A stretch of DNA of 64,000 nt from Agriterribacter humi (GTDB taxonomy: Bacteria > Bacteroidota > Bacteroidia > Chitinophagales > Chitinophagaceae): positions 434,001-498,000 of the forward strand of contig NZ_VOHQ01000003.1 in assembly GCF_009192765.1 (NCBI RefSeq), in the 5' to 3' direction. The translations under genes were made by a program, and so were the position numbers. Under the pieces are notes generated by a model that was given only the letters and a program-made list of their open reading frames with translations, had not been told where the DNA came from and ran no database searches. This document shows positions 21,763 to 53,683 of the stretch, in pieces. Position 1 is the stretch's first letter. Each line of letters begins with the position of its first letter.

Positions 21763-24700
21763 ATGCGATTGATTGCGTTTCGCAAAGCATTATCCTGCAC
21801 GAGGCGGGTGCGTATGTTTCTTCATCCCAAAACATGGCTGATTATGAGGTTGACCATTGTTTTATTAATTGCTGCCTGCATGCAGGTGCACGCCAGTGGA
21901 TACGCCCAGCGTATTTCCTTGTCAGCGCAAAATACTTCCCTCGAAAAAGTACTGCAAAAGATCAGGAAGCAATCAAAGCTTCATATGGTGTACAGGGAAG
22001 AATGGCTGGATCTTGCCGGAAAAGTGACCTTATCACTTAAAGATGTTTCCATTGAAGAGGCTTTGGAAGCCAGCTTCAAAAACCAACCATTAACTTATGA
22101 ACTGGTTGGCAATACCATAGTAGTAAAGAAAAGGGAGCGTTACAATGTTGCCGCTCCTTTGCCGCCTGCTGTTGCAGAAGTTCCGGCCATTGTTATTACA
22201 GGCCGGGTAACAGGCGGCGATGGGACCCCTCTCGGCAATGTAAGTGTTATGTTAAAAGGCAGCACAACAGGCGTAACCACCGATGCCAATGGTTCATTCA
22301 GCATCAATGTACCCAATGAAAAAGCAGTGCTCGTATTTTCATCTGTTGGGTTCCAGATACAGGAGCTTACCGTAGGCAATAGAAAAAATATTGAGATCGT
22401 ATTATTGCCTGCTGTTTCTGAATTGGAAGATGTGGTGGTAGTGGCATATGGCTCGCAAAAGAAAGTATCGGTAACCGGTGCTGTTTCTTCTGTAAATTCC
22501 GATGAGCTCAGGCAAAGCTCTTCTGCAAGCCTTGCCAATGCTTTGGCAGGAAGACTCTCGGGATTAACCTCCATTCAGTCGGGCGGTGGCCAACCTGGCC
22601 GCGATGACGCTACCATGTATTTGCGTGGGGCTGCTACTACAAACGGGCAGTCACCGCTTATTCTTATAGATGGTGTGCCAAGAGACAATATACGAACACT
22701 GGATCCTAACGAGGTAGAGTCTGTTTCTATTTTAAAAGATGCTTCTTCAACAGCCGTATTTGGGGTAAGGGGTGCCAATGGCGTTATTCTCATCACTACC
22801 AAACGTGGTTCTATAGGAAAAACAAAGCTGACCATTAATGCTGAACAGAGTTTTACTTCCTTCACCCGCGAACCAGAGCGCCTTCATTCGCTTGATTATA
22901 TGCGTTTGAGAAATGAAGCAGCCGCCAATGATGGTATTACGGATATTCCTTTTCCGCAGGAGGTAATGGATAAATATGCCAACCCGCTTGCCGGGCTTGA
23001 TCCGAATGATCCTGATTACGAAAGCAAGGCGGCGCTCAGAAGATATATCTATCCCGACCACGATTATTACCGTGAATATATTGCACGCTATTCCCCGCAA
23101 ACCCGCGTAAACGTAAGCGCCAGCGGCGGTACCAGCAAGCTCTCTTATTTTGTGAATGGTGTATACCTTCACCAGGGTGGTAACCTCAAAACAGAGCCGG
23201 AATCGGTGCTGGGTTATGATGCTTCTTCCTGGATGGATCGCTATAACTTCAGGGCTAACCTGGACTATAAAATAACATCTAACCTTAAGGCATTTTTAAA
23301 TATCGGAAGCTATATTGAACAGGTGAATATGCCTGCAGCATGGCTGTATGGAGGCGATACCCACTGGATGATCTCAGATCTTATGTACCAGGCGCAAACC
23401 ATTCTTCCCATAACGCCCGGACCAACTACTATTGATGGCTATGGCGTAGCACCGGGCCAAATTGTGGACCCGGGTTATATGGATCGTTCAGCCTTTGAGA
23501 TCATGAACCGTTTTGGATACCGCAACGAAGTAAGATCTAATTTGAATAGTTCCTTTGGACTGGATTGGGATTTAAGTGAAACTGTAACAGAAGGGTTAAG
23601 CATAAAGGGCATGATTTCCTACGATTCAAAGGCAACCACTGCCATGCAGGGAAGCAAATCGGAACGGCTTTACCTTGCTAATGTTAATTACGAAACAGAC
23701 GAGTTAAGCTATGCCATTAAGCGTTCCGATGAAAGCTTGCTTTCATTGGTGAAAGGAGCCGATTCGCGTTATAATATTAACCTCCAGGGTTCTGTTAACT
23801 ATAAACAACAGTTCGGAAAGCACGATGTTGGTGGTCTGGTTCTGGTGCAGCGCGATAACTGGGAATCAACACTCGGAGAAATACCATTCAACGTATTGGG
23901 TGTTGCGGCAAGAGCAACCTATGGTTACGATAACCGCTATCTGGCCGAAGTAAATATGGGCTACAACGGTTCAGAACAATTTGCACCCAGCCATCGCTTT
24001 GGCTTTTTTCCCGCGGTATCTGCAGGATGGGTAGTGAGCAATGAGGCATTCATGCAACCTTTCTCAAATGTTGTTTCCAACCTTAAATTCAGGGCCTCTT
24101 ATGGTAAAGTGGGTAATGACAGGATGGGCAATGCCCGCTTTCTATACCAGGATAACATTACTATGGGGGGAGGGCCACTGGGCAGTTTAGGTTTGGGGCA
24201 GGGTGTTAACCAGGGACTTTTGGGAAATCCAAATATAAGCTGGGAAGTGGCCGAAAAGCAAAACTTTGGTGTGGATTTCGGTCTCTTTGGTGACCTAAAC
24301 ATTTCCTTCGATTATTTTGTAGAAAACAGGAGCCAGATACTGATCTCCAGGGGAACGATTCCTGAACTACAGGGTGTGCCACTAGGCAATATTCCGAAAG
24401 CAAATTTGGGACGGGTTGATAACCGGGGTTATGAAATTGAACTGACCTACAACAAGTCGCTCTCTAAAGATTTTTCCTTAACAGTTAGAGGCAATTTTGG
24501 CTATAATCATAATACGGTGAAGTTTGTAGATGAATCCATGCGCGATGACACCTATGCATATCAATACAGGAGCACAGGCTATGCACTCGGGCAACAATGG
24601 GGCTACAAAATTGACTACAGCAACGGCAACGGCTATTTTAACAGCCAGCAGGAACTGGATGCCTATCTTGCTAAAACGGCCTATGGTTTTGGCGTACCCC

Positions 24701-25269
24701 GATTGGGCGATTTTATATACCAGGATTTAAACGGCGATGGCACCATTGATGCCAAAGATGAGGCGCCCATTAAATACACCAGCATTCCTGGTATAACCTA
24801 TGGATTTTCGTTGGGTTTGCGGTATAAGGGCTTTGATTTTACAGCATTTTTCCAGGGTGTAGGACGATATTCCAGTATGTTTGGCAGTCCACAGGGTGTA
24901 TATGAATATATTATACGAGGCACCTATTTCGGCTATCACAAAACCGCGTGGACACCTGAACGTTATGCCAGCGGTGAAAAGATCACCTACCCCGCTTTAA
25001 GCACACATACTACCACCAATCACCGGGCGAACGACTTCTTTATTATGAACCGCGCCTTTACAAGGTTAAAGAATATTGAACTGGCATATACGCTTCCCGC
25101 CAGATCCCTTACAAAAATTGGCGTACAGGAACTGCGATTGTACGTAAGCGGACAAAATCTTATTACCTGGGATCATTTGCCTTTAAATCATCTTGATCCG
25201 GAAAATGTAGGATCAATAGATTATCCTGTAACCAGGATGGCAAATATTGGCGTAAACATTACTTTCTAA
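21763..25269 (+). CDS. SusC/RagA TonB-dependent transporter with STN signalling domain
   Basis: This 1168-residue outer-membrane transporter starts with a long basic segment and signal peptide (core around residues 28-44), then an STN (secretin/TonB N-terminal) domain at about 50-125 (SLEKVLQKIRKQSKLHMVY), a CarboxypepD_reg-like domain (about 145-215), a TonB-dependent plug (from VVVVAYGSQKKVSVTGAV) and a 22-strand barrel ending in NITF. The STN domain is the periplasmic contact for FecR, which pairs this transporter with the upstream sigma/FecR. It imports oligosaccharides across the outer membrane with its SusD lid, encoded 19 nt downstream. Calcium-like DLNGDGTIDAKDEAP near residue 985 is a usual SusC plug-barrel feature. 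Confidence 0.96.
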   Translation: MRLIAFRKALSCTRRVRMFLHPKTWLIMRLTIVLLIAACMQVHASGYAQRISLSAQNTSLEKVLQKIRKQSKLHMVYREEWLDLAGKVTLSLKDVSIEEALEASFKNQPLTYELVGNTIVVKKRERYNVAAPLPPAVAEVPAIVITGRVTGGDGTPLGNVSVMLKGSTTGVTTDANGSFSINVPNEKAVLVFSSVGFQIQELTVGNRKNIEIVLLPAVSELEDVVVVAYGSQKKVSVTGAVSSVNSDELRQSSSASLANALAGRLSGLTSIQSGGGQPGRDDATMYLRGAATTNGQSPLILIDGVPRDNIRTLDPNEVESVSILKDASSTAVFGVRGANGVILITTKRGSIGKTKLTINAEQSFTSFTREPERLHSLDYMRLRNEAAANDGITDIPFPQEVMDKYANPLAGLDPNDPDYESKAALRRYIYPDHDYYREYIARYSPQTRVNVSASGGTSKLSYFVNGVYLHQGGNLKTEPESVLGYDASSWMDRYNFRANLDYKITSNLKAFLNIGSYIEQVNMPAAWLYGGDTHWMISDLMYQAQTILPITPGPTTIDGYGVAPGQIVDPGYMDRSAFEIMNRFGYRNEVRSNLNSSFGLDWDLSETVTEGLSIKGMISYDSKATTAMQGSKSERLYLANVNYETDELSYAIKRSDESLLSLVKGADSRYNINLQGSVNYKQQFGKHDVGGLVLVQRDNWESTLGEIPFNVLGVAARATYGYDNRYLAEVNMGYNGSEQFAPSHRFGFFPAVSAGWVVSNEAFMQPFSNVVSNLKFRASYGKVGNDRMGNARFLYQDNITMGGGPLGSLGLGQGVNQGLLGNPNISWEVAEKQNFGVDFGLFGDLNISFDYFVENRSQILISRGTIPELQGVPLGNIPKANLGRVDNRGYEIELTYNKSLSKDFSLTVRGNFGYNHNTVKFVDESMRDDTYAYQYRSTGYALGQQWGYKIDYSNGNGYFNSQQELDAYLAKTAYGFGVPRLGDFIYQDLNGDGTIDAKDEAPIKYTSIPGITYGFSLGLRYKGFDFTAFFQGVGRYSSMFGSPQGVYEYIIRGTYFGYHKTAWTPERYASGEKITYPALSTHTTTNHRANDFFIMNRAFTRLKNIELAYTLPARSLTKIGVQELRLYVSGQNLITWDHLPLNHLDPENVGSIDYPVTRMANIGVNITF

Positions 25270-25288
25270 CAATTTAGATAAAGCAATT

Positions 25289-27187
25289 ATGAAAATTAAA
25301 CAAATCATATTATTGTTAACCGTGTCGTTGCTTACACTGGAGTCCTGTAAAAAGGCGCTGGATATGGCGCCCGACGGAAAGGTTACAATGGATGAAATTT
25401 TTTCCGACAACGATAAAACGGCTGCATTTCTGAACAGTTGCTATAATAATATGCCGGCAAAAGGAACCCGGTACTTTTTCTGGAGCCGCGGACCTGTGGT
25501 ATGGAGTGATGATGCCTGGGATACGGATGCGGAAGCGGAGTCCTGGATCATGGCAGGACGCATGTACAACGGCGATGCATCTGCCGGCAGTCACCCGATA
25601 ACCAATATCAGCACAGATGCAGGCAATGGCGACTATTGGGCAAGATATTGGAGCGCTATACGCAACTGTACTATTTTTATCAGCCGCATTGATGAAGCTG
25701 CTGTAAAAAATGAAGCTGACCGCAGCCGGTGGAAAGCTGAAGCACATTTGCTGAGGGCATACTATTACGCTGAATTGCTGAAATGGTTTGGACCCGTTTT
25801 ACCTGTTAGCCGTGAACCTTTTGAGTTTTCGGATGACTTTTCTAGCCTTGAAAAAGCAAGTTATTATGATGTGGCCAAGTTTATTATGGAAGATTGTGAT
25901 GTGGCCATAAATACAGCAGAATTACCCTGGAGAATTACCACCAATGGTGAAGCAGGGCGTGTTAATAAAGCCATGGCCGAAGCCATCAAATCGAAGATGA
26001 TCCTCTTTGCAGCCAGCCCGCTTAATAATGGTGGCGCCAATTACTGGCAGGAAGCATACGAGGTTAATAAAGCTTCACTTCAAAACCTGCGCAGCAACGG
26101 CTATGAATTATACAACAAAGTAAATCTGCCCCAAACCTATCTTTCCGATGTTGCTTTTATAGGTCCTGATAAAAATGAAAAATCAGCGCTCTACAATGAA
26201 TATTTCACACAAAACATGGCGTATACAGCCAATCCTGTAGATAAAGAAACGATATACCAAAGCAGGGATGGTCAGGGAAACATCTGGAATATTGATGGTA
26301 TAGGCGCACAGGATGGTTATAAATCCGGCACCTGTCCTTCACAGGAACTGGTAGATTCCTATGAAACGATTGACGGGAAGCCTGTTCTTAATCTTGAAAA
26401 TCCCTACCTCGATGAAAAGCATCTCCAGCCCAACTACAATACGGATAATGCTTTATATGATCCAAACAATCCTTACGAAAACCGTGACCCCCGTTTTTAT
26501 GCTTCCATTTATTATAATGGTTCTAAAAGAAAATGTTTCTGGAATTTTTCGGAATCGCCGGAATCGCCTGAAAATTACCCTGCGGGCATTGGTAATCGCA
26601 CAAGAGTTATTGCCACCTATGTTGGTGAACCGCAAACGGGTATTGATGGCACTGTAAGAAAAGCTACCCGCACAGGATATTTCGAACGCAAGTTTTTGCA
26701 TCCCAATTCAGGAGGAGATAACCCCGTGGGAGGCGCTAACTGGAAACTCTTCCGCCTGGGAGAGGTGATCCTCAATTTTGCGGAAGCCGCTGCAGAAGCC
26801 GACCAGTTAACAGAAGCGGCTGATGCCGTTAATGAAATAAGAAGAAGAGCAGGAATGCCTGATTTACCGGCCGGACTTTCAAAAGATGAACTCATCCGGC
26901 GTGTGCGTAATGAACGCAGGGTAGAACTGGCGATGGAAGAAAACCGTTATTTCGATATACGGCGCTGGACGGAACCCGGTGGCGATCTGTCTAAAACAGA
27001 CAAGTGGATCACCGCGATGGAAATCAAGCGCAACAATGATGGTAGCTATACATATGGCCGCCGCACGGTACGCGATTCGGAGCGTAAATGTTATACCAAT
27101 AAATTTTTGTGGGTACCCATGCCGCTTGCCGAAGCCAATCGCCTGCTCTCTATTACAGGAGAAAACTGGCAGAACGCGGGTTGGTAA
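25289..27187 (+). CDS. SusD/RagB starch-binding-like lipoprotein
   Basis: The 632-residue surface lipoprotein has a type II signal with the acylated Cys in LESCKKA (about residue 20), a SusD-like N-terminal TPR fold (WKAEAHLLRAYYYAELLKWFG) and the C-terminal SusD/RagB domain (LAEVILNFAEAAAEA-type helix, AVNEIRRRAGMP, RNERRVELAMEENRYFDIRRW). It forms the glycan-binding lid on the preceding SusC. Ligand unknown. Coupled to SusC by a 19-nt gap. Confidence 0.95.
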   Translation: MKIKQIILLLTVSLLTLESCKKALDMAPDGKVTMDEIFSDNDKTAAFLNSCYNNMPAKGTRYFFWSRGPVVWSDDAWDTDAEAESWIMAGRMYNGDASAGSHPITNISTDAGNGDYWARYWSAIRNCTIFISRIDEAAVKNEADRSRWKAEAHLLRAYYYAELLKWFGPVLPVSREPFEFSDDFSSLEKASYYDVAKFIMEDCDVAINTAELPWRITTNGEAGRVNKAMAEAIKSKMILFAASPLNNGGANYWQEAYEVNKASLQNLRSNGYELYNKVNLPQTYLSDVAFIGPDKNEKSALYNEYFTQNMAYTANPVDKETIYQSRDGQGNIWNIDGIGAQDGYKSGTCPSQELVDSYETIDGKPVLNLENPYLDEKHLQPNYNTDNALYDPNNPYENRDPRFYASIYYNGSKRKCFWNFSESPESPENYPAGIGNRTRVIATYVGEPQTGIDGTVRKATRTGYFERKFLHPNSGGDNPVGGANWKLFRLGEVILNFAEAAAEADQLTEAADAVNEIRRRAGMPDLPAGLSKDELIRRVRNERRVELAMEENRYFDIRRWTEPGGDLSKTDKWITAMEIKRNNDGSYTYGRRTVRDSERKCYTNKFLWVPMPLAEANRLLSITGENWQNAGW

Positions 27188-27225
27188 ATAGTAAACAGGT
27201 TTAATTGACTTACAACGATACATAC

Positions 27226-30200
27226 ATGCAACATACATCAACGATAACAATCAAAACAATACGGCTGCTTGCATTTTTGCTGATCTATTTCTGCGGATCA
27301 GCACTGCATGCACAAACACCATCTACCACCGTAAGCGGTAAGGTTACCGATGCATTTGGTAAACCGCTTTCAGGTGTATTGATCAATTCCTCAAATGGAA
27401 AAAACGGGACATCCACCGACAGAAATGGCGAATACAATATCATTGTGGATGATAACAGCGATATACTCGTTTTTTCAAACAGGCGCTACACTACTCAAAA
27501 AATAGCAATTGGCGATAAAGAAAATATCAATATCAAACTCCTGCAGGATATATATGGAAGAGATGACGTGATTGAACTGGGCTATACATCTCAATTGCGG
27601 AAGGAAGTTTCCGGGGCTGTATCTGCTATTACCGGGGAGGAGCTCGAAAGCGCTCCTGTTGCCAACTTTACACAAACTTTGGCCGGCCGGCTTGCGGGAC
27701 TTACCACGCAGGAAACATTTTCAGAATTGTCGCGTGCCAATACCAATTTATATGTAAGAGGTCTTTCCTCCGCCCGTTTGAACGGACCGCTGGTTATTAT
27801 AGATGGAATTATATGTGCCTACAACAGCAATCAAACGCTGGAATATATATCTCCCAATGAAATTGAATCGGTTACCCTTCTTAAAGATGCGTCTACTCAG
27901 GCGTTGTATGGCATACAGGGTGCTAACGGTTTAATTGTTATTAAAACCAAACGTGGCAGAAAAGGGGAGTTGCAGATCAAAGGAAGATTCGACCAGTCTG
28001 TACAGCAGGTAACAACAAAGCCTGCTTTTTACGATGCCGCAAGCTATGCGGAAATGAGAAACCAGGCTGCGTTTAATGACGGGCAGGGTCAGAACTATTT
28101 TTATTCTCCTGAACAAATTGAAAATTATCGTTCGGGTGCTAATAAAGATTTGTATCCGAATAACAACTGGTACAACCAGTACATGAAAGACATGGCATCC
28201 ATGCAGCGTGCCAGTGTTAATTTATCGGGTGGAAACGATAAGATACTTTTCTACTCCAATATCAATTTCATGCACCAGGGCGGGCAGTTTAAAACGGATC
28301 AATCCAAATACAACCCCAATGCAAACAATGTATGGTTTAACTACAGGTCCAATGTAGATATGACCATTAATAAATACCTGAAAGCTTTTGTACGGCTGAG
28401 TGGTAATATTAAAAGAGAACGTACGCCCGGCGCCAGCAATGAAGCTGTTTACAGCAGCATTTTCCAGATACCTTCAAATGTATATGGCCCGGTTACGCCG
28501 CCCGAAGTTGATAAGGGCACTGGTGAAATGATTGATGATGGCGGTAAGGTTATCACAACAGAAAGAGTAGCTTCTCCTACATATGGCATGCTTAACCGTA
28601 CCGGTTACCGAAGACATACAGTAACCAATATAACTTCGCAGTTTGGGCTGGATCTTGATATGGGCTTTCTTACCAAAGGATTAAACCTGAGTGGTGTATT
28701 TGCTTATCAAACCAATTCCGTAGGCAGCTTGTCTACCACGCAAAATTATGAACGCTGGGTAAGAACAGATAATGCCGATACACTGGCATTTATTAAAAAA
28801 GGCGGAGAAACCAATACACCGCTTGCATATAGTAAATCGCATTCTTATTATTACCATCTTACCTATAATACCGCTTTGAATTATAAGCGCGATTTTGGCA
28901 AACACAATATTAGCGGCATGGCCTATATGTTCTATCAAAATCTTACAAAAGCCGATGTGAGTTCACCGTGGTTGCTTCCTTATAACCGGGTGAGCTCGGG
29001 CGTTGAAGCTACTTATGGGTATGATAACAGGTATTTGGTAAAGTTTGATATTGGATATTCAGGATCGGAGCAGTATGAACGCAGCCAGCGTTATATTGCA
29101 ACACCTGCTGTATCGGCTGCATGGGTAGTCTCTAATGAAGCTTTTTTGCAGAACACAGCGTGGTTAAGTAATCTTAAATTAAGAGCCTCGTATGGCAAAA
29201 CGGCCAATGATCAAAGTGGGCTTAACCGTTATGCATATCTCGACAATGTAACCGTAAGCGGGGGAGGCCCAATCGGCTATCTCCAGTATTATATTAATGA
29301 AAATCAAAGAGGCAATCCTTATATCCAGGCGGAGATTTCTACGAAGAAAAACTTTGGTATTGACCTGGGTTTGTTCAATTCAATTTCTGTTTCTGTAGAT
29401 GTATTCAACGAGAAGATGGAGAACATGATTGTAAGCGCGGTATCTACCATACCCAGCTACCAGGGCATTCCGTTGAATTTTTATCCGAGTACCAATTCCG
29501 GAACATTTAAAAACACGGGATATGAAATTGTTGCCAGTTATGATAAGGTGGTTAACCGCGACCTGTCTTTTTCGGCGGGTGGTATGATGAGTTATGCCAG
29601 GAATACACTTGTGAAAGTAAATGAGGCTACCAAAACAACGGATTACGCCTATATAAAATGGCAGGAAGGATATTCTTATGGACAGCAGTTTGGTTACCAG
29701 GTTGATTACAGCAATGGTAACGGCTTCTTTAATACACAGGCCGAATTAGACAACAGCAATCTGGAATACGGTTTTGGCAATCCACGATTGGGCGATCTTA
29801 AATATAAAGATCTGAACGGAGACAGTAAAATTGATGACCGCGACCAGGCGCCTGTTGGCACAGGAGCATTACCGCGGGTAGTGTATGGAATACATGGAGG
29901 ATTTAATTATAAGGCATTCGAGTTAAATTTTCTTTTCCAGGGCGTGAGCAATTATTCAACAATGATTGGTGGCACAGGCATTTGGGAAACTTCTTTCGAT
30001 GGCGTATTTGGAGCTTTGCATGCCAATGCCTGGACGCAGGAGCGGTACGATAACGGAGAAAAAATTAGTTCACCGGCGCTTTCTTTGGCTAAAACAGTTA
30101 ATCATGAAGCAAGCGATTATTATATCTATAACCGCGCTTACCTGCGACTCAAAAACCTTGAGTTGGCCTATACGCTGCCCGCGTCTTTGGCCAATGCCAT

Positions 30201-30351
30201 TACAGCAGAGAAAGTAAGATTCGTACTGAGCGGGCAAAACCTGGTTACATGGGATAAAATGAAGTCGGATGATTTTGGACCGGAAGGCGGCGGTTACTCC
30301 GCATTCCCTGTTTACAAAGTATACAACGTGGGCATTAGTGTAACCTTTTGA
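27226..30351 (+). CDS. SusC/RagA TonB-dependent transporter (second copy, no STN domain)
   Basis: I choose ATG 27226; an in-frame TTG lies 7 codons upstream. The 1041-residue protein has a signal peptide ending in LHAQ, a CarboxypepD_reg-like domain (VSGKVTDAFGKPLSGVLI), plug and barrel ending in SVTF. It lacks an STN domain, so it is not wired to FecR. The usual plug-start motif VVVGYG is degenerate here (IELGYTSQ). It is a clear paralogue of the upstream SusC: the GYxxGQQxGYxxDYSNGNG and GxPRLGDxxYxDLNGD blocks match closely. It lies 38 nt after the first SusD, so the four genes look like a tandemly duplicated susCD unit. Confidence 0.93.
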   Translation: MQHTSTITIKTIRLLAFLLIYFCGSALHAQTPSTTVSGKVTDAFGKPLSGVLINSSNGKNGTSTDRNGEYNIIVDDNSDILVFSNRRYTTQKIAIGDKENINIKLLQDIYGRDDVIELGYTSQLRKEVSGAVSAITGEELESAPVANFTQTLAGRLAGLTTQETFSELSRANTNLYVRGLSSARLNGPLVIIDGIICAYNSNQTLEYISPNEIESVTLLKDASTQALYGIQGANGLIVIKTKRGRKGELQIKGRFDQSVQQVTTKPAFYDAASYAEMRNQAAFNDGQGQNYFYSPEQIENYRSGANKDLYPNNNWYNQYMKDMASMQRASVNLSGGNDKILFYSNINFMHQGGQFKTDQSKYNPNANNVWFNYRSNVDMTINKYLKAFVRLSGNIKRERTPGASNEAVYSSIFQIPSNVYGPVTPPEVDKGTGEMIDDGGKVITTERVASPTYGMLNRTGYRRHTVTNITSQFGLDLDMGFLTKGLNLSGVFAYQTNSVGSLSTTQNYERWVRTDNADTLAFIKKGGETNTPLAYSKSHSYYYHLTYNTALNYKRDFGKHNISGMAYMFYQNLTKADVSSPWLLPYNRVSSGVEATYGYDNRYLVKFDIGYSGSEQYERSQRYIATPAVSAAWVVSNEAFLQNTAWLSNLKLRASYGKTANDQSGLNRYAYLDNVTVSGGGPIGYLQYYINENQRGNPYIQAEISTKKNFGIDLGLFNSISVSVDVFNEKMENMIVSAVSTIPSYQGIPLNFYPSTNSGTFKNTGYEIVASYDKVVNRDLSFSAGGMMSYARNTLVKVNEATKTTDYAYIKWQEGYSYGQQFGYQVDYSNGNGFFNTQAELDNSNLEYGFGNPRLGDLKYKDLNGDSKIDDRDQAPVGTGALPRVVYGIHGGFNYKAFELNFLFQGVSNYSTMIGGTGIWETSFDGVFGALHANAWTQERYDNGEKISSPALSLAKTVNHEASDYYIYNRAYLRLKNLELAYTLPASLANAITAEKVRFVLSGQNLVTWDKMKSDDFGPEGGGYSAFPVYKVYNVGISVTF

Positions 30352-30384
30352 TGGAGGACAATTTATTAACCTGGATTTTTCATA

Positions 30385-30434
30385 GCTCATTACATGTGCT
30401 AAAATCAAAATAAAAATCTACACATGAAATGAGC
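30385..30434 (+). promoter_or_regulatory. Stem-loop between second susC and second susD
   Basis: Arms at 30385-30398 and 30421-30434 pair over 14 positions with one mismatch and a 22-nt loop. No T tract follows. It sits in the 158-nt gap between susC and susD, where the first pair has only 19 nt. It could be an mRNA processing or stability element, which is inference. Confidence 0.4.
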
Positions 30435-30509
30435 CTTGATAATGCTTATCACTAACCAGGATGATTATTTGGCGAATTCCATTTGGCTAAAAAAATAAAA
30501 AATAAACAA

Positions 30510-32279
30510 ATGAAACATTATTATAAAATCATTATTTCTTCCATATTCCTGCTTGTTCTGTTTTCCTGCAACAAGAAACTGGATCTGCCCAGTGATGGCC
30601 GGATTACCATTGACCAGGTATTCAGCGATTATAACAGAACGCGTGGATATCTTAATTCCTGTTACGGGCATTTACCTGCTCCTTATATGGACAGGGCTTC
30701 GTTTACAGATGAAGCGCAGGATGCAGATGACATTACTTCCGGTTCAAGATATACCATGTGGTATGGCGGTAATATTACTTCCCAAACCTATGCCCTGTAT
30801 TCTTCGGATGGAAGCCCCTGGGCACAACTTTTCCAGGGAATCACCAAGTGCAATACATTTATTGAAAACATAAGAACCGCTACGGTATATGCCAGCGAGG
30901 AAGTGAAAGCAGGATGGACAGCGCAGGCGCATACCTTAAGGGCTTTGTATTACCTGCAATTGATCAAGCGATATGGTGGTGTACCTATTTTTGATAAACC
31001 TTTGGATATCCTGCACGATTTTAGCAAAGACAACCGTGCTACGTTTGGAGAGGTGGTGAAATTTATTATGGCCGATTGCGATTCGGCGCTGGCTGTACCC
31101 AATACACAAAATGGGTTTTCCTGGAACATTTACGATAACCAGTTTGGTATTATGAGCCGTGCTGTAGCATATGCTATTAAATCGCAGGCAATAACGTATG
31201 CCGCCAGCCCCTTATGGGCCGATGGCACTTACAGTTGGGCAGATGCGGCCCAGGTAACGGCTGAAGCTTTGCAGCAGTGCCTGGCAAACGGATATAAACT
31301 CTTTGATGAAGTACCTGCCTCCGGCATTGCACAAAACTCTTACGCGTTGTACTTTTTTACAACATCCAACGATCAGCGTGCTGTGGATAAAGAAACTATA
31401 TACCAGGGTGGTGGTCAAATGCAGGTATGGAAATTTGCCGGGCTGCCCAGTACCCCGGGTATGGAAAAAGCAGGCCCATGTCCTACGCAGGAACTGGTAG
31501 ACAGTTATGAAATGGCCAATGGCGAAGCGCCCATCAGCGGGTATTCAGATGCCAGCCGCCTGATTCCCATTGTCAATCCTGCTTCAGGATACGATGAAAC
31601 AAATCCCTATGCCGGCCGCGACCCCAGGTTTTATGCTTCTATTTATTACAATGGTGCAGTGCGGAACCTGGATCAGCCCGCCGGGAAAAAAGTAGAAACA
31701 TATGTGGGTGGTGAAGAAGAGATATCAGCACTAAACCGTAAGCATACACGAACCGGTTATTACCAGCGTAAGTTTAATAATTATAAGTCTGGACAAAACA
31801 ATGACGCCGACGGTGCTATACGGTTGTTTCGTTTGGCCGAGCTGTACTTAAATTTTGCAGAAGCCGCTAACCAGTCTGTTGGGCCGGATGCAGCGGTTAC
31901 AGCCAACGGACAGTCCATGACGGCAAGAGAAGCCGTAAGTGCAGTAAGGGCAAGAGTTGGAATGCCTGCTTTTCCGATAGGCATGTCTAAGGAAGATTTT
32001 GATAAAAAATACCGTAATGAACGAAGGATAGAATTGGCATTTGAAGAGCATCGTTTCTTCGATGTTCGCCGCTGGAAAATATTAAACCAGACAGATCAGT
32101 TTGTTACAGGTGTTGAGATCACGAAAAATGGGGCAGACTTTACATACAACCGCTTCAAATTTGAAGACAGGGATTGTTCGTCAGATAAATACCTGATGTA
32201 CCCCATTGACCAGGATGAAGTAAATAAAATAATCGGTCTTTCTGATGTGAACTGGCAGAATCCGGGATGGCTGGATTAG
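30510..32279 (+). CDS. SusD/RagB starch-binding-like lipoprotein (second copy)
   Basis: ATG 30510 is preferred over the upstream in-frame TTG at 30483. The 589-residue lipoprotein has its acylated Cys in LFSCNKK. It is paralogous to the first SusD of this locus: both open with K-x-L-D-(M/L)-x-(S/P)DG, share an F-S-D-x-(N/D)-x-T-R/A-x-(Y/F)LNSCY segment, and have the C-terminal RNERRIELAFEEHRFFDVRRW signature. It would form the lid of the second SusC. A terminator lies about 215 nt downstream, which closes the susCD-susCD block. Confidence 0.95.
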   Translation: MKHYYKIIISSIFLLVLFSCNKKLDLPSDGRITIDQVFSDYNRTRGYLNSCYGHLPAPYMDRASFTDEAQDADDITSGSRYTMWYGGNITSQTYALYSSDGSPWAQLFQGITKCNTFIENIRTATVYASEEVKAGWTAQAHTLRALYYLQLIKRYGGVPIFDKPLDILHDFSKDNRATFGEVVKFIMADCDSALAVPNTQNGFSWNIYDNQFGIMSRAVAYAIKSQAITYAASPLWADGTYSWADAAQVTAEALQQCLANGYKLFDEVPASGIAQNSYALYFFTTSNDQRAVDKETIYQGGGQMQVWKFAGLPSTPGMEKAGPCPTQELVDSYEMANGEAPISGYSDASRLIPIVNPASGYDETNPYAGRDPRFYASIYYNGAVRNLDQPAGKKVETYVGGEEEISALNRKHTRTGYYQRKFNNYKSGQNNDADGAIRLFRLAELYLNFAEAANQSVGPDAAVTANGQSMTAREAVSAVRARVGMPAFPIGMSKEDFDKKYRNERRIELAFEEHRFFDVRRWKILNQTDQFVTGVEITKNGADFTYNRFKFEDRDCSSDKYLMYPIDQDEVNKIIGLSDVNWQNPGWLD

Positions 32280-32385
32280 TGTGGTGAGTAGGGAGTGGTG
32301 AATGGTGAATAGTGAGACGTGAAAGGTGAGAAGTGAAAGGTGAGTGGTGAGAAGAGAGACGTGAGAAGTGAAATGTTGAGTGAAC
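32280..32385. repeat. GTGA-rich degenerate repeat after second susD
   Basis: Immediately after the stop codon, about 105 nt consist of purine-rich words such as GGTGAGAAGTGAAA, GAATGGTGAATAG and GAGAGACGTGAG in no fixed period. The same words recur after the stop of the 1177-residue protein (47531-47709) and, shorter, after the GMC gene (43800-43829). Confidence 0.6.
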
Positions 32386-32717: not shown

Positions 32718-34721
32718 ATGAAAAGAAGAATACTGTTTATTGCGCTTGTTGCCTTATTAAGTAAACTGCATGGATATACTCAAACCACCGATGAAAACGA
32801 TTACCGCGATATATATCCCGACACCTGGGTGGCTACCGATGGCATTGGCAGAACCATGCCGGGGTTTAATGCGGTGGGGCCGGTTAAGCATGATCAGCGC
32901 CGTGTTGTGGGCATTTTTTATATCACCTGGCATAGTGATAATCTCGCCAATCTTAAGCCTCCTTATAGTGCCGATGTAACCAAAGTGTTTGCCGAAGATC
33001 CATCTGCCCGGCTTGATGCCAAACATCCTTTATGGAAAGAAGGATCATATCACTGGGGCGAACCGGAAGCCGGGTATTTTTTGAGTAAGGATGAATATGT
33101 GATCCGCAAAGACATGTCTATGCTTGCCGATGCAGGTGTGGATGTGCTGATCATGGACGTAACCAATGCGGTTCGGTACTGGAGTGAGTGGGACGCTGTT
33201 TTTTCGGTAATGCAAAAAATGAAGGCAGAAGGAAATAAAGTGCCTAAATTTTGTTTTTGGGCATTTAACGGACCGGTCATTACAGTAGTCCAGGATTTAT
33301 ACGACAGAATTTACAAAGAAAATAAATACAAAGACCTGTGGTTTCACTGGGACGATAAGCCTTTGATGTTGTATAATGGCGACCCAAGTGTGGATGCAAA
33401 CGGAAACGGCGTAAAGAATCCCAATCTACATTATGATTCCACGGCATTAACCAACCGCAATAACCCTCATTACGGAAATCCTGATTACACTGAAAAATTT
33501 TATAAAGACTATACCAAAGAAGTAAAAAAATATTTTACCCTGCGCACAATGTGGTGGGGATATTATAAATGGGCAGGTAGGCGTTTTGTAGGCACCGAAG
33601 ATAACTGGAGCTTTGGGTATGATTTGGGTAACGACAAAGTGAAAGCTATGCATCCCGACAGCCTTGTCTCTACACACAATGGAAAAAAAGAGGAAGCGGC
33701 CGTTACGCCTGCGCAGCATCCGTCGAGCTTAGTGGGCAAATCCTGGTCCAGGGAAAAAGGAGAGCCGCCGTTAAACCAATATGATCTTCCTGAACCTACC
33801 TACGTACCGTGGTTGAAGAAAACGGTAAGCAATCCGGAAGGCTATGGTATTTACTTCCAGGAAAGATGGGAAGAAGCATTGAAAAGCGATCCTCAGTTTT
33901 TATATATCAACGACTGGAACGAATGGACTGCAGGCAAGTACCAGCCGGCAGATGGAAAAACATTTGATTTCATGCGCCGCAAAAGTCCCTATTTTTTTGT
34001 TGACCAGTACAACGCCGAATTTAACCGTGCCATACAGCCCATGAAAGGCGGCTATACGGATAATTATTACATGCAGATGGCACAAAACATCCGCAGGTAT
34101 AAAGGTGTGCGTGCCATACCGGAATTAAAAGGATTGTCGAGGATGAAAGTGGATGGAAACTTTGATGACTGGAAAAAAATATCGGTAGAATACCGCGATA
34201 CCAAAGGCGATGTTTTTCACCGTGATCATAAAGGATACGGTGGTCTGCATTACAGCAACAATTCGGGACGTAACGATATTGTAACCTGTAAAGTAGCAGT
34301 AGATAAAAACAATGTATTCTTTTACGCCGAAACAGACCAGCCGCTTACCCCTTCTATTGGCAATAACTGGATGCTGCTGCTGATAGATGCGGATCAGAAC
34401 CCGGCTACCGGATGGCATGGATATGATTTCCTTATCAATAAAAAAATTAAGGACGATAAAACCACAACCCTGATGCGTTATGATGCCAATACCGCAAGCA
34501 ATCACTGGACAGAAATCGCCGAACTAACGTATCGATATAACGGCGCTGTGCTGGAGTTGTCTGTTCCGCGCAGCATTTTGGGCTTAAAAGGTGATGGATT
34601 TACTTTCGATTATCATTGGGCAGACAATCCCGAAGACCTCGAAACGCCCATTTCGCTTAGCATTAACGGCGACAGTGCACCCAACCGCCGGTTCAACTAT
34701 CGGAGCATCTGGAAAAAATAA
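32718..34721 (+). CDS. GH71/99-like secreted protein with CBM9-like domain, paralogue 1
   Basis: The 667-residue exported protein has a signal peptide to about residue 21. Residues about 35-450 look like a TIM-barrel hydrolase of the GH71/99-like group found in Bacteroidota: VGIFYITWHSDN near the first strand, MLADAGVDVLIMDVTN, and DWNEWTAG at 398-406 with Glu402. In GH99 and WbsX relatives the equivalent motif is NEWxEG with a second Glu; here the second position is Ala405. The C-terminal part (from about 475, GNFDDWKKISVEY to the end) resembles a CBM9/DOMON-like carbohydrate-binding sandwich. It is the first of three tandem paralogues. A glycan-cleaving role is likely from family and context, but the missing Glu leaves the mechanism open. 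Confidence 0.75.
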   Translation: MKRRILFIALVALLSKLHGYTQTTDENDYRDIYPDTWVATDGIGRTMPGFNAVGPVKHDQRRVVGIFYITWHSDNLANLKPPYSADVTKVFAEDPSARLDAKHPLWKEGSYHWGEPEAGYFLSKDEYVIRKDMSMLADAGVDVLIMDVTNAVRYWSEWDAVFSVMQKMKAEGNKVPKFCFWAFNGPVITVVQDLYDRIYKENKYKDLWFHWDDKPLMLYNGDPSVDANGNGVKNPNLHYDSTALTNRNNPHYGNPDYTEKFYKDYTKEVKKYFTLRTMWWGYYKWAGRRFVGTEDNWSFGYDLGNDKVKAMHPDSLVSTHNGKKEEAAVTPAQHPSSLVGKSWSREKGEPPLNQYDLPEPTYVPWLKKTVSNPEGYGIYFQERWEEALKSDPQFLYINDWNEWTAGKYQPADGKTFDFMRRKSPYFFVDQYNAEFNRAIQPMKGGYTDNYYMQMAQNIRRYKGVRAIPELKGLSRMKVDGNFDDWKKISVEYRDTKGDVFHRDHKGYGGLHYSNNSGRNDIVTCKVAVDKNNVFFYAETDQPLTPSIGNNWMLLLIDADQNPATGWHGYDFLINKKIKDDKTTTLMRYDANTASNHWTEIAELTYRYNGAVLELSVPRSILGLKGDGFTFDYHWADNPEDLETPISLSINGDSAPNRRFNYRSIWKK

Positions 34722-34770
34722 GTTCGGAAAGCAAACAAAATCATTGGTCAGTCACACTAAAAATTAAGAG

Positions 34771-36549
34771 ATGAAATATTGCACAGGTTTATTGCTTCTT
34801 GCTTTTTGTATACAATCAAGGGCCCAGTCGCCAGGCATTAGCGCTATAGCCACAGATGCCGTTGGCAGATCTTTACCTGGTTATGAACAAGCAGGCGCAC
34901 CTAAGAAAGATAGGTTTGTAGGATTGTTTTACTGGACATGGCATACACAACAAAGCAAAAACAATCCACCTTATAACGTTACCGAATACCTTTCGCGCGA
35001 TCCCAAAGCAATCCATGATTACAATAATCCCATATGGCCCAAAGGCAAAAGTCCCTGGTTTTGGGGCGAGCCTTTGTTTGGTTATTATATTGATACCGAT
35101 GCATGGGTGTTGCGTAAGCATGCAGAGATGCTTGCCGATGCAGGCGTTGATGTAATCATTTTTGATTGCACCAATGGTAATATTACCTGGAAAGAATCGT
35201 ATATGAAATTGTGTGAAGTATTTACACAGGCACGGAAAGATGGTGTTAAAACACCTCAAATTGCTTTTATGCTGCCCTTTTGGGTAGGCGTTGGCGGTAA
35301 AGAAATATTAAGGGAGATATACAATGATCTGTATAAGCCAGGTAAATACAAAGACCTTTGGTTTAAATGGAAAGGGAAGCCTTTTGTAATGGGATCTCCC
35401 GAATTTGCCGAAGACATACCTGGCAGAGCGAATGATCCCGCACTCAAAAAAGAATTGCAGCAATTCTTCACCTTTCGTACGGGTCAGCCGGTATACAACA
35501 AAGGCCCCGAAAAACCAGACCATTGGGGATGGCTGGAAATTTACCCGCAGCATGGTTTTGTAAAAAAAGAAGATGGCGGCTTCGAACAGGTAACTGTTGG
35601 GGCAGCGCAGAACTGGACTAAGGAAAGAGGGCTAACTGCGTTGAATGCTACCGGTGCTTTTGGCCGTAGCTATACACATGCAAAAGGCCACATTACAGAG
35701 CCCGGAGCGGTAAACTATGGGTACAACTTCCAGGAACAGTGGGAGCGGGCGCTGGAAATTGATCCTGAATTTATTTTTATTACAGGATGGAATGAATGGA
35801 TTGCGGGGAGGTATGATGTTTGGCAGGAGCAAACCAACGCATTTCCCGATGAATTTAACCAGGAAAACAGCCGCGATATTGAACCCATGAAGGGCGGACA
35901 TGGCGATAATTATTACTACCAGATGGTAAGCAATATCCGAAGGTTTAAAGGTGTACCAGCTACGCAGCCTGTATCTGCGCCTATAACCATTGCCGTTGAC
36001 GGAAGATTTGCAGAATGGAATAAAGTAACACCGGCTTTCACATCTCACAAAGGCAGTACCATTCACCGCAACAGCGCGGGTTGGGGCAGCTTGCATTATA
36101 CGAACAATACAGGAAGAAATGATATTGTGCTTGCCAAAGTGGCCAGGGATAATGATCATGTTTATTTTTATGTTGAATCCGCTAAGGCATTAACGCCCAA
36201 AACAGACCCTGCATGGATGCGTTTGTTTATTGATATTGATCTGGATAAGAATACCGGGTGGGAAGGATATGATTTTGTGATCAACCGCATTAATCCGGGT
36301 AAGAAAGCTATAGTGGAAAAAACGTATGCAGCATGGAACTGGCAAAAAGCCGGTGAGGTGGATTATGCAGTGAATGGCAATAAACTGGAAATTAAAGTAC
36401 CAAAAGATTTGCTGGGCATTACCGGCGAGCCTGATTTTGGTTTTAAATGGAGCGATAATATGCAGGAGCAGAACAATATCATGGATTTTTGGATCAATGG
36501 CGATACAGCGCCTGCCGGAAGATTTAATTATCATTATACAGCAAAATAA
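34771..36549 (+). CDS. GH71/99-like secreted protein with CBM9-like domain, paralogue 2
   Basis: The 592-residue paralogue of the upstream gene starts 49 nt after it. Signal peptide to about residue 18 (SRAQ). The same landmarks occur in the same order: VGLFYWTWHTQQ, WGEPLFGYY, MLADAGVDVIIFDCTN, YNFQEQWERALE and GWNEWIAG with Glu342 and Ala345, then EPMKGGHGDNYYYQMVSNIRRFKG linking to a C-terminal CBM9-like domain (from about 410). It lacks the extended loop around residues 240-270 of paralogue 1 and so is shorter. Probably secreted to the periplasm or beyond. Substrate unknown. Confidence 0.75.
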   Translation: MKYCTGLLLLAFCIQSRAQSPGISAIATDAVGRSLPGYEQAGAPKKDRFVGLFYWTWHTQQSKNNPPYNVTEYLSRDPKAIHDYNNPIWPKGKSPWFWGEPLFGYYIDTDAWVLRKHAEMLADAGVDVIIFDCTNGNITWKESYMKLCEVFTQARKDGVKTPQIAFMLPFWVGVGGKEILREIYNDLYKPGKYKDLWFKWKGKPFVMGSPEFAEDIPGRANDPALKKELQQFFTFRTGQPVYNKGPEKPDHWGWLEIYPQHGFVKKEDGGFEQVTVGAAQNWTKERGLTALNATGAFGRSYTHAKGHITEPGAVNYGYNFQEQWERALEIDPEFIFITGWNEWIAGRYDVWQEQTNAFPDEFNQENSRDIEPMKGGHGDNYYYQMVSNIRRFKGVPATQPVSAPITIAVDGRFAEWNKVTPAFTSHKGSTIHRNSAGWGSLHYTNNTGRNDIVLAKVARDNDHVYFYVESAKALTPKTDPAWMRLFIDIDLDKNTGWEGYDFVINRINPGKKAIVEKTYAAWNWQKAGEVDYAVNGNKLEIKVPKDLLGITGEPDFGFKWSDNMQEQNNIMDFWINGDTAPAGRFNYHYTAK

Positions 36550-36583
36550 AAACGCTGCATGGTTTGCTGCCGGGGCAATCGCC

Positions 36584-36606
36584 GTGGTACGTGTCTCACG
36601 TACCAC
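36584..36606. repeat. Perfect 10-bp hairpin between paralogues 2 and 3
   Basis: GTGGTACGTG (36584-36593) and CACGTACCAC (36597-36606) are exact reverse complements around a TCT loop. It has the look of a REP-type palindrome. A related but imperfect hairpin follows at 36693-36713. Confidence 0.6.
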
Positions 36607-36692
36607 CACCAGGGCTTCTTTTTATTTAAGTTGACCGGCGACAATTTGAACTTTTCTCACCGGAGGTAAGTGCATCCGTTTCTACTGCCCTG

Positions 36693-36713
36693 GCTGGTGT
36701 CTCCACCACCAGC
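36693..36713. repeat. Second hairpin between paralogues 2 and 3
   Basis: GCTGGTG and the CACCACCAGC region pair around a TCTC loop. The flanking GCCCTGG (36687-36693) is the inverted counterpart of CCAGGGC beside the first hairpin (36607-36613). Both hairpins are followed by a GCGACAATT(T)GAA word. Confidence 0.45.
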
Positions 36714-36768
36714 AGCGACAATTGAATACACCACCTTTAGTTAACTTTTAAAATTGTAGTCAATTCAA

Positions 36769-38508
36769 ATGAGAAAGTTTATCCTTATTGTTTGTATGAG
36801 TTGCTTCATTGCTGAATCAGCCATCTCACAAACGCTGGCTGCAACCGACGGGCTGGGTCGTACGCTGGTGCAAAATGATGCCGCAGGAAATCCAAAATCC
36901 AATCGTCATGTTGCACTGTTCTATTTTTTGTGGCAGGGCGATAAAGGTTCACCAACATCGCCCAACAACTGGGATTTGCACGAACTGTATACAAACCACC
37001 GGGAAGTTTTTGATGATGCCGGTGATCCCAATTGGGGTGGTGGTAAAGGAACTTATTATTTTTGGGGTAAGCCTATTTACGGATATTACCGTGGCGATGA
37101 TTACTGGGTGCATCTGCGCAATGTTCAACTGCTTACCGATGCAGGCGTAGATATGCTGGTGATAGATGCTACCAACCGGGTTACTTATCCGCTTCAGTCT
37201 GAAGCATTGATGAAAGCAATGGATGCAGTGCGGGCACAGGGAAAAAATCCTCCTAAAATTGTGTTCTACACCAATACAGCTTCGGGAGAAACCATGCAGG
37301 AGATTTATGAGAATTTTTATAAAGAAGGAGCGCCTTACCGTCATCCGGATTGCTGGTATTATTTAGATAATAAACCCCTGATTATAGGAGTAACCAAAGA
37401 AACGGAAGGTAAAGCGTATAAGAATTTTTTCACTTTCAGGGAGTCGCAATGGCCAACGGTGCCCAAAGTACCAAATGGTTGGCCCTGGATTAGTTTTACC
37501 CGGAAGCCCGAAGTACACTACAATGAACGTGGTGAAAAAGAAATTATCAACGTGTCTGTGGCGCAACACCCAAATCCCACTGCCGGCATGGGAGGTTCGG
37601 CATTCTATGGGAACATGGACAACTGGGGACGCAGTTATCATAACAACACGCATGGCAATCCGGAAACCGATATACGGTATGGTTACAATTTCCAGGAACA
37701 ATGGGATTATGCGCTTAAGGAAGACATTCCGTTTGTATTTGTTACCGGGTGGAATGAATGGATTGCAGGCCGCTGGAAGAGCATGGATAGTAATCCAAAG
37801 CATTCCTGGTTTTGCGACCAGGCAAGTCCTGAATACAGTCGCGATATTGAACCTTCTTTAACCGCCGGACTAAAAGATCATTATTACATGCAAATGGTTA
37901 ATAACATACGACGGTATAAAGGCGTTGAAAAAAATCTGGCAGACAAGGGATTGATAACAATTCGCAATATGCAGGATTGGAAAAAAGTAGCGCTTGTATA
38001 TACCGATTATACCGGTGACACACAACACCGCAATCATCCCGGGGCACAGTCAAAACCCGAAACCATTTACACCAGCAATACAGGCCGGAATGACTTTCAT
38101 ATTATAAAAGTGGCAAAGGATGATAAGCATTTATTTTTTTACACCGAAACAGTACATGATATTACAGAGCCATCGGGCAACAACTGGATGCGCCTCTATA
38201 TTGATTGGGATAAGAATGCCAAAACCGGCTGGAAGGGCTATGATTACCGGGTTGTAAAGGGTACTGTACTGGAACATTATAGCAATGGTAAATGGACAGT
38301 CATTAATAAAAAAGCAATCAAGCCTGTTATTAACGGAAACAAAATGATGCTTACGATTCCGCTTTCGCTTTTTAGTAAGTTGGCTGGCCCACTCCGTTTT
38401 GAATTTAAATGGACGGATAACATGCAGGAAGAAAACCCTTTAGACTGGTATATCAACGGAGATGCCGCACCGGGAGGCAGATTTAATTATCAGTATACGG
38501 CACAATAG
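36769..38508 (+). CDS. GH71/99-like secreted protein with CBM9-like domain, paralogue 3
   Basis: The 579-residue third tandem paralogue has a signal peptide to about residue 20, VALFYFLWQGDKG, WGKPIYGYYRGDDYWV, LLTDAGVDMLVIDATN, YNFQEQWDYALK and GWNEWIAG with Glu330 and Ala333. The C-terminal CBM9-like domain begins near residue 400 (MQDWKKVALVYTDYTGD) and ends in WYINGDAAPGGRFNYQY, the same ending as paralogue 2. It is separated from paralogue 2 by 219 nt holding two hairpins, so its expression may differ. Confidence 0.75.
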   Translation: MRKFILIVCMSCFIAESAISQTLAATDGLGRTLVQNDAAGNPKSNRHVALFYFLWQGDKGSPTSPNNWDLHELYTNHREVFDDAGDPNWGGGKGTYYFWGKPIYGYYRGDDYWVHLRNVQLLTDAGVDMLVIDATNRVTYPLQSEALMKAMDAVRAQGKNPPKIVFYTNTASGETMQEIYENFYKEGAPYRHPDCWYYLDNKPLIIGVTKETEGKAYKNFFTFRESQWPTVPKVPNGWPWISFTRKPEVHYNERGEKEIINVSVAQHPNPTAGMGGSAFYGNMDNWGRSYHNNTHGNPETDIRYGYNFQEQWDYALKEDIPFVFVTGWNEWIAGRWKSMDSNPKHSWFCDQASPEYSRDIEPSLTAGLKDHYYMQMVNNIRRYKGVEKNLADKGLITIRNMQDWKKVALVYTDYTGDTQHRNHPGAQSKPETIYTSNTGRNDFHIIKVAKDDKHLFFYTETVHDITEPSGNNWMRLYIDWDKNAKTGWKGYDYRVVKGTVLEHYSNGKWTVINKKAIKPVINGNKMMLTIPLSLFSKLAGPLRFEFKWTDNMQEENPLDWYINGDAAPGGRFNYQYTAQ

Positions 38509-42065: not shown

Positions 42066-42083
42066 TAAAACGCAATAAAAATT

Positions 42084-50314: not shown

Positions 50315-51676
50315 TTGTTTCTGTTTATCTGCCTTGCAGGTAAAGCACAAAGAAATACAGATGTTGCATCAACTTCCCGTCCCAATATTATTTTTATTCT
50401 TACTGATGATCAGCGCCTTGATGCCTTAGGCGCTACAGGCAATACAATTATCCATACACCCAATATAGATAAGATAGCCCGCAAAGGAATTCTGTTCAGC
50501 AATGCGTATGTAACAACTTCCATTTGTTGTGTAAGCCGAGCCAGTATCCTTAGCGGGCAATACATGCTCCGGCATAAGATAGAGGATTTCGCCACTCCTT
50601 TCACCGATGAGGCTTTACAGCAAACCTATCCTTTATTGCTACGAAAAGCTGGTTATACAACAGGCTTTATTGGCAAATTCGGTATAGGAACGAAAGATCC
50701 TTCTCCTGCTCTTTTTGATTACTGGGCTTGTTCAAAAGAGATGGATCACCAGTATCATCTTTCCAATACTAAAAGCGAAAAGGTACACAATACAGATAGC
50801 ATAAGCAATGCCATCTTACAATTTCTCGGACAGCATGGCACGCAAACCCCATTCTGTTTGTCGGTAAGTTTTAAAGCGCCGCACGAATTAGATGGAAGTC
50901 CTCCCACATATCCCGTGCAGGAAAAATTTAAAACGTTGTATGTAAATGATAATATTCCTGAACCACTCACGGCCGATCCGGCATATTGGAACAATTTTCC
51001 GGATTTTTTCAGAACGGATAAAAATATTGCAAGGATAAGGTGGAAACCACTTTTCTCCACGCCTGAGCTGTATCAGCAAACGGTAAAAAACTACTACCGC
51101 ATGATCACCGGTGTAGATGAGGCGATGGGTAAGATGATGGAAAAATTGCAGCAATTGGGAATAGCCGGTAATACTGTTATTGTATATATGAGTGACAACG
51201 GTTTTTCATTAGGAGAACATGGTTTAGAGGGAAAATGGTATCCGTATGAAGAATCTGTTCGTGTACCGCTTATTATATTTGATCCGCGGCGTGCGCCGGC
51301 TCAAAATGGGAAAATAGCCAGGCAAATGGCACTGAATATTGATATTGCACCTACCCTGTTATCACTGGCCGGGGTAGCTACACCCGGACGAATGCAGGGA
51401 CAGGATCTTTTTGCATTAACAGATAATAAGATTCCTGAAAGAAAAGATTTTTTCTACAAGCATACATTCGCCGGAACACCAGCCTTGCCGCAATCCGAAG
51501 CGGTGATCAGCAAATCCATGAAATACATTATTTATACAGAGCATCATTACGAAGAACTGTATGATCTTTCCCGCGACCCGTACGAAACCACCAACCTCGC
51601 AGGAAATGGAAAATATAAAAAGCAAATGGCGTATTTTAGAAAACGCCTTGAAACCTTGAAGCGGAATGCGCTCTGA
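50315..51676 (+). CDS. Sulfatase (alkaline-phosphatase fold), 5' end apparently frameshifted
   Basis: The intact frame starts at TTG 50315 (453 residues). No in-frame ATG exists: a stop codon lies at 50300-50302. ATG 50293 is in another frame and ends after 16 codons, but ignoring the single G at 50302 joins it to this frame and yields a full signal peptide ending LAGKAQ. Sulfatase features are ILTDDQR (metal Asp pair), CCVSRASILSG (formylglycine site, Cys71-x-Val73-Ser74-Arg75, with Val for the usual Pro), YMSDNGFSLGEHG and the GKWYPYEESVRVPLII block. It would remove sulfate esters from glycans, so the target is probably a sulfated polysaccharide. Formylglycine maturation needs an enzyme not seen in this window. 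Confidence 0.85.
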   Translation: MFLFICLAGKAQRNTDVASTSRPNIIFILTDDQRLDALGATGNTIIHTPNIDKIARKGILFSNAYVTTSICCVSRASILSGQYMLRHKIEDFATPFTDEALQQTYPLLLRKAGYTTGFIGKFGIGTKDPSPALFDYWACSKEMDHQYHLSNTKSEKVHNTDSISNAILQFLGQHGTQTPFCLSVSFKAPHELDGSPPTYPVQEKFKTLYVNDNIPEPLTADPAYWNNFPDFFRTDKNIARIRWKPLFSTPELYQQTVKNYYRMITGVDEAMGKMMEKLQQLGIAGNTVIVYMSDNGFSLGEHGLEGKWYPYEESVRVPLIIFDPRRAPAQNGKIARQMALNIDIAPTLLSLAGVATPGRMQGQDLFALTDNKIPERKDFFYKHTFAGTPALPQSEAVISKSMKYIIYTEHHYEELYDLSRDPYETTNLAGNGKYKKQMAYFRKRLETLKRNAL

Positions 51677-51772
51677 TTCAGCAAAATGATTTGAATACGT
51701 CTACCCGCAAACTTCTGAATATATAATCTTTTTCAGGAAGGTACAGGATGAAATTATGCTGTATCGCAATTA

Positions 51773-51788
51773 CCTTCAGCGCTGAAGG
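51773..51788. promoter_or_regulatory. Perfect 16-nt palindrome upstream of the GH78-like gene
   Basis: CCTTCAGC followed directly by its reverse complement GCTGAAGG, 55 nt before the chosen ATG. It might be an operator half-site pair. No known regulator match is claimed. Confidence 0.3.
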
Positions 51789-51842
51789 GAACGACTGCTA
51801 TTGTTATTCCCGCACATCAGAAAACTGATGAAACACTTACAA

Positions 51843-53600: not shown

Positions 53601-53683
53601 AAGGGCATTGCACATAGTTGCGCAGGCTGATAATTGATTTTAAAATTACGTTCTAAATAAATTCATCATACTAAAGCCTAACG

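Follow-up and report, generated by a model that had tools for sequence, protein, structure and literature searches.

A protein family of the GH99/GH71 fold group that lacks the second dyad glutamate and carries an invariant aspartate, a candidate replacement acid, on an inserted loop

Three tandem genes (P1–P3) are located in a 64,000-nucleotide stretch of the Agriterribacter humi genome, referred to below as the window, and each encodes a protein with the motif WNEWxAG. In related glycoside hydrolases the corresponding motif contains a second Glu. The locus raises the question of whether this acid is truly missing from the active site and, if so, which residue could act in its place.

Fold and active-site register of the three proteins

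The genes and their motifs are the following:

32718..34721, plus strand: P1 gene, 667 aa; signal peptide, GH99/GH71-like barrel, C-terminal CBM9-like domain
33915..33935, plus strand: P1 WNEWTAG, residues 400–406 (E402, A405)
34771..36549, plus strand: P2 gene, 592 aa; architecture as in P1; the protein that was modelled
35788..35808, plus strand: P2 WNEWIAG, residues 340–346 (E342, A345), aligned to E329/E332 of BtGH99
36769..38508, plus strand: P3 gene, 579 aa; architecture as in P1
37750..37770, plus strand: P3 WNEWIAG, residues 328–334 (E330, A333)

All three reading frames are intact. The motif had been reported for each protein in the first-pass annotation, and its Glu/Ala numbering proved exact when the frames and motifs were re-read. 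The proteins are 39–40% identical in pairs and can be aligned end to end, including the C-terminal domain of about 195 residues; a genome-wide search found no copies beyond P1–P3. The barrel has zero matches in Pfam, even at E=10, and no meaningful ones in NCBIfam. In particular, PF16317 (GH99) matches none of P1–P3 up to E=10 and has no match in their own genome, and PF14307 (WbsX) gave no Pfam match. Single P1–P3 sequences retrieved nothing from PDB, and no work on the family was found in the literature. P1–P3 are secreted, probably sugar-cleaving proteins of a family that has neither a name nor a Pfam or NCBIfam model.

A profile of the family matched BtGH99 (PDB ID 4ACY) with E=5.9e-6, NEWiaG facing NEWHEG and A345 standing opposite E332 (BtGH99 residue numbers were counted from the alignment). 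Alignment by hhalign gave the same register, both to two GH99 sequences (E=1e-11) and to nine GH99-like sequences of the WNDFGEG type (E=1.1e-5); for WbsX, the hhalign alignment was confined to a portion of the N-terminal half. P2 was modelled with AlphaFold2 (mean pLDDT 95.1), and the model was compared with PDB structures using Foldseek and VIA-align. It forms a (beta/alpha)8 barrel of the GH99 type, and its best PDB matches are GH99 structures (4acy: Z 19.6, 276 aligned residues, rmsd 5.0; 4ad0: 257 aligned, rmsd 3.8). OpGH99A (5NGW) follows with Z 17.5, 257 aligned residues and rmsd 3.9. The fold of GH71 is also recovered, with Z 14.8–15.8, compared to about 11–12 for unrelated barrels.

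The GH99 dyad has the form EW[H/G]E (PMC11025385). The GH71 dyad is found where the beta8-alpha8 loop begins, and neither of its acids is dispensable (PMC12394665). By the structure comparison, the profile match and hhalign alike, the NEW segment coincides with the GH99 dyad and so lies in the active site, from which the acid/base Glu is genuinely absent. The alignment to GH99 that had been made by eye is therefore correct in setting A345 against the second Glu; among the solved GH99 enzymes, no relative bearing Ala was found.

Loss of the second glutamate across the family

The alignment of P1–P3 was scanned against 84,980 species genomes, which yielded 80 loci and, from them, 136 homologous reading frames. 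Members are found in seven phyla, namely Bacteroidota, Bacillota (Clostridia), Planctomycetota, Kiritimatiellota, Armatimonadota, Hydrogenedentota and Chlamydiota (one MAG). The family is sparse, given that only 2 of the 296 sampled Bacteroidota genomes, the window's genome and one other, contain full-length members. Nothing was found for the family in PHROGs or by the plasmid search, nor by the genome search with the remote member P0004 as a query.

The first Glu (E342 in the P2 numbering, which is used below) is retained in 136 of the 136 aligned members; N341, D360, P372 and Y382 are also invariant. Position 345 is occupied by Ala (116 sequences), Met (13), Val (4), Ser (2) or Thr (1), and by Asp or Glu in none. 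The family dyad region therefore differs from EW[H/G]E of GH99, E-x-x being followed by A/M/V/S/T in all 136 members, from DxxE of GH71, since the first acid is Glu and the second is missing, and from NEWxEG of WbsX, the second Glu again being absent. The consistent Ala emphasized in the first-pass annotation does hold for all three proteins, but it is not a signature: in addition to Met, Val, Ser and Thr, one remote member has Gly. As the position varies without ever being acidic, "never an acid" describes it better than "consistent Ala". Ala as a functional residue is ruled out by the M/V/S/T found at the same position in other members. Similarly, NEWx followed by a non-acidic residue does mark a separate family, as had been suggested for NEWxAG, but the defining feature is the loss of the acid together with the gain of an insertion, and not the Ala.

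Comparison with known systems places the family as follows. With GH99 (endo-alpha-1,2-mannosidase/mannanase; BtGH99 4ACY, BxGH99 4AD1) it shares the barrel fold, the NEW register, the first Glu, the downstream IEP motif and the GxYxxxD motif before the second strand. Unlike GH99, it has neither the second Glu, nor the His and Glu of the substrate-binding motif H[I/L]EPY (P2 reads AFMLPFW), nor a match to PF16317, and it has in addition an insertion of 22 or more residues with an invariant Asp and the C-terminal CBM9-like domain. GH71 alpha-1,3-glucanase (AnGH71C, 9FNF) has the same fold (Z about 15), an acid after beta8 and, as the alignment suggests, Trp as the aromatic residue adjoining the first acid; it differs by DxxE instead of ExxA and by the absence of the insertion in the beta8-alpha8 loop. 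WbsX (PF14307) and the WNDFGEG proteins have the same local architecture N[E/D][W/F]xxG...EP; unlike the P1–P3 family, they keep the second Glu and have no insertion. GH195, a recently named endo-alpha-1,3-mannanase family acting on sulfated mannan, is a distant GH99 relative from Bacteroidota PULs (PMC13063451); compared by description only, it resembles the P1–P3 family in being related to GH99 and in occurring in such loci. By the defining motifs of GH99, GH71 and WbsX, the P1–P3 family is outside all three and is a separate new family within the known GH99/GH71 fold group, probably working on the same general plan.

The gap in the dyad could in principle reflect decay or misassembly of the paralogues, one catalytic residue being gone. 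On the tree, P1, P2 and P3 fall in three distinct lines (P1 and P3 clades, 100 each), and their orthologues are found in identical order at loci L005, L006, L007 and L009, so that the triplet is old and did not arise by recent duplication. Relative to the orthologues, pN is 0.12–0.19 and pS is 0.70–0.79 (pS is saturated), which indicates strong purifying selection. Given a pN/pS ratio well under 1, the persistence of all three lines of orthologues across genera and the same change in 136 homologues, decay of P1–P3 is ruled out and the chance of this explanation, misassembly included, is negligible; the original reading of the motif as "not decay" agrees with this and with the universal first Glu.

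It is also conceivable, but quite unlikely, that these are non-catalytic glycan-binding proteins that capture the substrate for a SusC/D system. Apart from the missing acid, this would be in line with the CBM9-like domain on each protein and with three copies in one locus, and there is a precedent: OpGH99A, whose crystal structure has the GH99-related fold, is described by the title of the original paper (Robb 2017) as lacking catalytic machinery. However, OpGH99A lost both dyad acids (NNWNIG) and has no insertion. The loss of both acids is not seen in the P1–P3 family, where the first Glu is universal and W252, R236 and N135 are near invariant; moreover, the family spans seven phyla.

The inserted loop and candidate acids

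In every family member NEWxAG and the matching [I/A/V][E/Q/H]P motif are at least 22 residues apart, whereas in the GH99, WbsX and WNDFGEG proteins compared the second Glu is followed by G-x-x and then [I/L/M/F]EP, with no insertion. This conserved insertion escaped the first-pass annotation. Its positions in the window are:

35809..35877, plus strand: P2 family-specific insertion, residues 347–369, between NEWxAG and the superfamily IEP motif
35848..35850, plus strand: P2 Asp360 codon, candidate replacement acid (136/136)
34002..34004, plus strand: P1 Asp429 codon, counterpart of D360
37816..37818, plus strand: P3 Asp350 codon, counterpart of D360

According to DSSP applied to the P2 model, the insertion starts with a predicted hairpin (strands 348–351 and 354–357), followed by F358-x-D360-x7-R368. 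Among members, the 345–360 spacing ranges from 14 to 30 residues, and the hypervariable tip has column entropies of 1.8–3.4 bits, compared to zero at D360; the spacings D360–R368 (8) and R368–P372 (4) are the same in 136 of 136 members. Given the two-residue turn, 348 would pair with 357, and 345 would face 360 if the ladder were extended; judging by these strand limits, D360 is predicted to lie opposite A345.

The remote proteins P0005 (393 aa; NEWAAG...FVD...DIEP) and P0004 (NEFAG...YLD...DFEP) also have Asp at the D360 position and no second Glu, and L130 (NEWTGC) has Glu at this position. R368 is present in 134 of 136 family members and is replaced by Ala, Asp or Asn in the remote ones, so it was rejected as a key residue; its loss in proteins that keep the Asp makes D360 the more fundamental feature. 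In every sequence seen, the loss of Glu and the gain of the acid-bearing loop co-occur. Highly divergent relatives located beside ordinary members (L054:2986-4812 and L009:6719-7897) keep E342, D132 and D360 and have no second Glu.

Other acids were considered as replacements and rejected. E365 is conserved in just 114 of 136 sequences, and in the P1 clade Gln or His takes the place of E371 of the IEP motif. E272 is invariant, but it sits at the start of its strand and thus is probably on the far side of the barrel.

The reading that we prefer, and to which we would give an even chance, is that P1–P3 are active glycoside hydrolases that have retained E342 and use D360 in place of the lost acid: the active site looks rebuilt, not broken. 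Taken separately, catalytic activity of the family is highly probable, and the role of D360 as the catalytic acid is about evenly balanced against other possibilities. Glu342 would keep the role of the first dyad acid (general base), the inserted hairpin would return Asp360 beside the emptied position of the second Glu, and Asp360 would protonate the leaving group. In GH71, Trp185 stands where BxGH99 has Tyr252, and this residue has been linked to the inverting or retaining outcome (PMC12394665). As W252 would correspond to Trp185, by analogy in the sequence alignment, a single displacement may be the likelier, and we regard an inverting mechanism as a prospect of roughly equal weight with its opposite. 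The three paralogues would then be old, separately maintained lines, probably cutting different linkages of one complex glycan.

D360 could instead be structural or bind a metal. One such alternative, which we consider unlikely, is an active hydrolase where E342 pairs with D132 or another residue and D360 has a structural or substrate-binding role. D132 is present in 135 of 135 sequences and in remote members too. Together with N135 it lies at the C-terminal end of strand beta2, where GH99 has a SWLG-type sequence. The WNDFGEG group also has Asp there, and W252 (134 of 136) aligns with the invariant Trp of that group. This Asp, however, coexists with a complete dyad and so is not obviously a replacement, and it is D360 that arrived together with the loss of Glu. 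Very unlikely, in our estimate, is catalysis with no protein acid, where the leaving group needs none or the substrate supplies it, or another reaction such as elimination. In favour of this, all members have lost the acid/base, its position accepts A, M, V, S or T, and an acidic substrate could be held by R236 and R368, both near invariant; but the invariant D360 would then need another reason, and no lyase-like family was matched in Pfam or NCBIfam. Of the two options proposed initially, a different acid or a different reaction, the former has thus gained a specific candidate in Asp360 on the family-specific insertion, and the latter is not borne out.

On the scale of the family, the preferred reading, with D360 as the substitute, would mean relocation of an acid within the GH99/GH71 fold: the Glu lost everywhere, and an invariant Asp on an inserted beta-hairpin of variable length in its place. 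The family would then be new to CAZy and would differ from GH99 in dyad geometry and perhaps in stereochemical outcome. We propose this tentatively, at slightly less than even chances. GH99 enzymes act on alpha-mannosides with retention, through a 1,2-anhydro sugar, and GH71 enzymes hydrolyse alpha-1,3-glucan with inversion. GH99 and GH71, with a shared fold and dyad position and differing mechanisms, already serve studies of mechanism change in evolution (PMC12394665). If the reading holds, acid relocation could be studied as a natural experiment in a widespread family that lost a dyad acid and gained one on a loop. The activity of the family would also put a name to a recurrent gene type, lacking a Pfam or NCBIfam model, in glycan loci of Bacteroidota, Clostridia and Planctomycetota.

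C-terminal domain and genomic context

The relevant features of the window are:

35962..36546, plus strand: P2 C-terminal CBM9-like beta-sandwich, residues 398–592 (model of the domain alone, pLDDT 91.4)
21763..32279, plus strand: two SusC/SusD pairs immediately upstream of the triplet (Pfam for the first pair, homology for both)
50315..56557, plus strand: sulfatase and two GH78-type alpha-L-rhamnosidase-like genes downstream; membership in the same cluster is uncertain

The model of the C-terminal domain matches the Sas6/CBM74 beta-sandwich (Z 11.7, 179 aligned residues, rmsd 3.7) and CBM9 modules (Z 8.8–9.1, 150–156 aligned, rmsd 4.0–4.2); this predicted structure suggests that the domain is probably a carbohydrate-binding module.

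SusC/SusD genes flank the family in 26 of 81 loci. Downstream of the triplet, the window contains a gene of a 909-residue protein, a set of gluconate-dehydrogenase-subunit-3, GMC and cytochrome c genes, an epimerase-like TIM barrel, the sulfatase and the two GH78-type genes. Homologues of both GH78-type genes are found close to family members at L023 and L055. Rhamnose genes are found near about 12 of 81 loci (raw count): GH106 alpha-L-rhamnosidase at six loci, GH78 at L023, L038, L055 and in the window, and, at L045 and likewise L051, a member just before rhamnulokinase and L-rhamnose isomerase (RhaA/RhaB). Similar frequencies are seen for GH130-like (12 loci) and DUF5722 (10 loci) neighbours. 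A glycan containing L-rhamnose, taken up via a SusC/D-type locus, is a possible target, with a probability that we put a little under one half.

Several neighbours merit mention in their own right. DUF5722 (PF18989) proteins at L008:6302-8446 and nine other loci provide a functional link for another uncharacterised family. Weak similarity to GH130/beta-1,2-mannobiose phosphorylase was observed at L005:6453-7943 and eleven other loci of Chitinophagaceae and Clostridia. The 909-aa protein beside the triplet (38660-41389) is without a Pfam or PDB match; given its weak similarity to oligosaccharide amylase/alpha-glucosidase models, it is perhaps a glycosidase. The region 41511-47530 encodes in a row a Gluconate_2-dh3 subunit, a GMC oxidoreductase (its closest PDB entry is the large subunit of fructose dehydrogenase, 1.4e-32) and a DUF7133/HEAT/cytochrome c protein, and resembles a locus for a periplasmic sugar dehydrogenase accompanied by its electron carrier. 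Finally, degenerate GTGAGAAGTGAAAGGTGAG repeats with 7-, 14- and 21-bp periods occupy intergenic regions 32282-32380 and 47545-47615 (six matches at no more than three mismatches vs 0.03 expected). Across the genome the exact pattern is matched eight times, including seven matches on six other contigs, vs zero for the reversed control, and possibly represents a dispersed repeat family.
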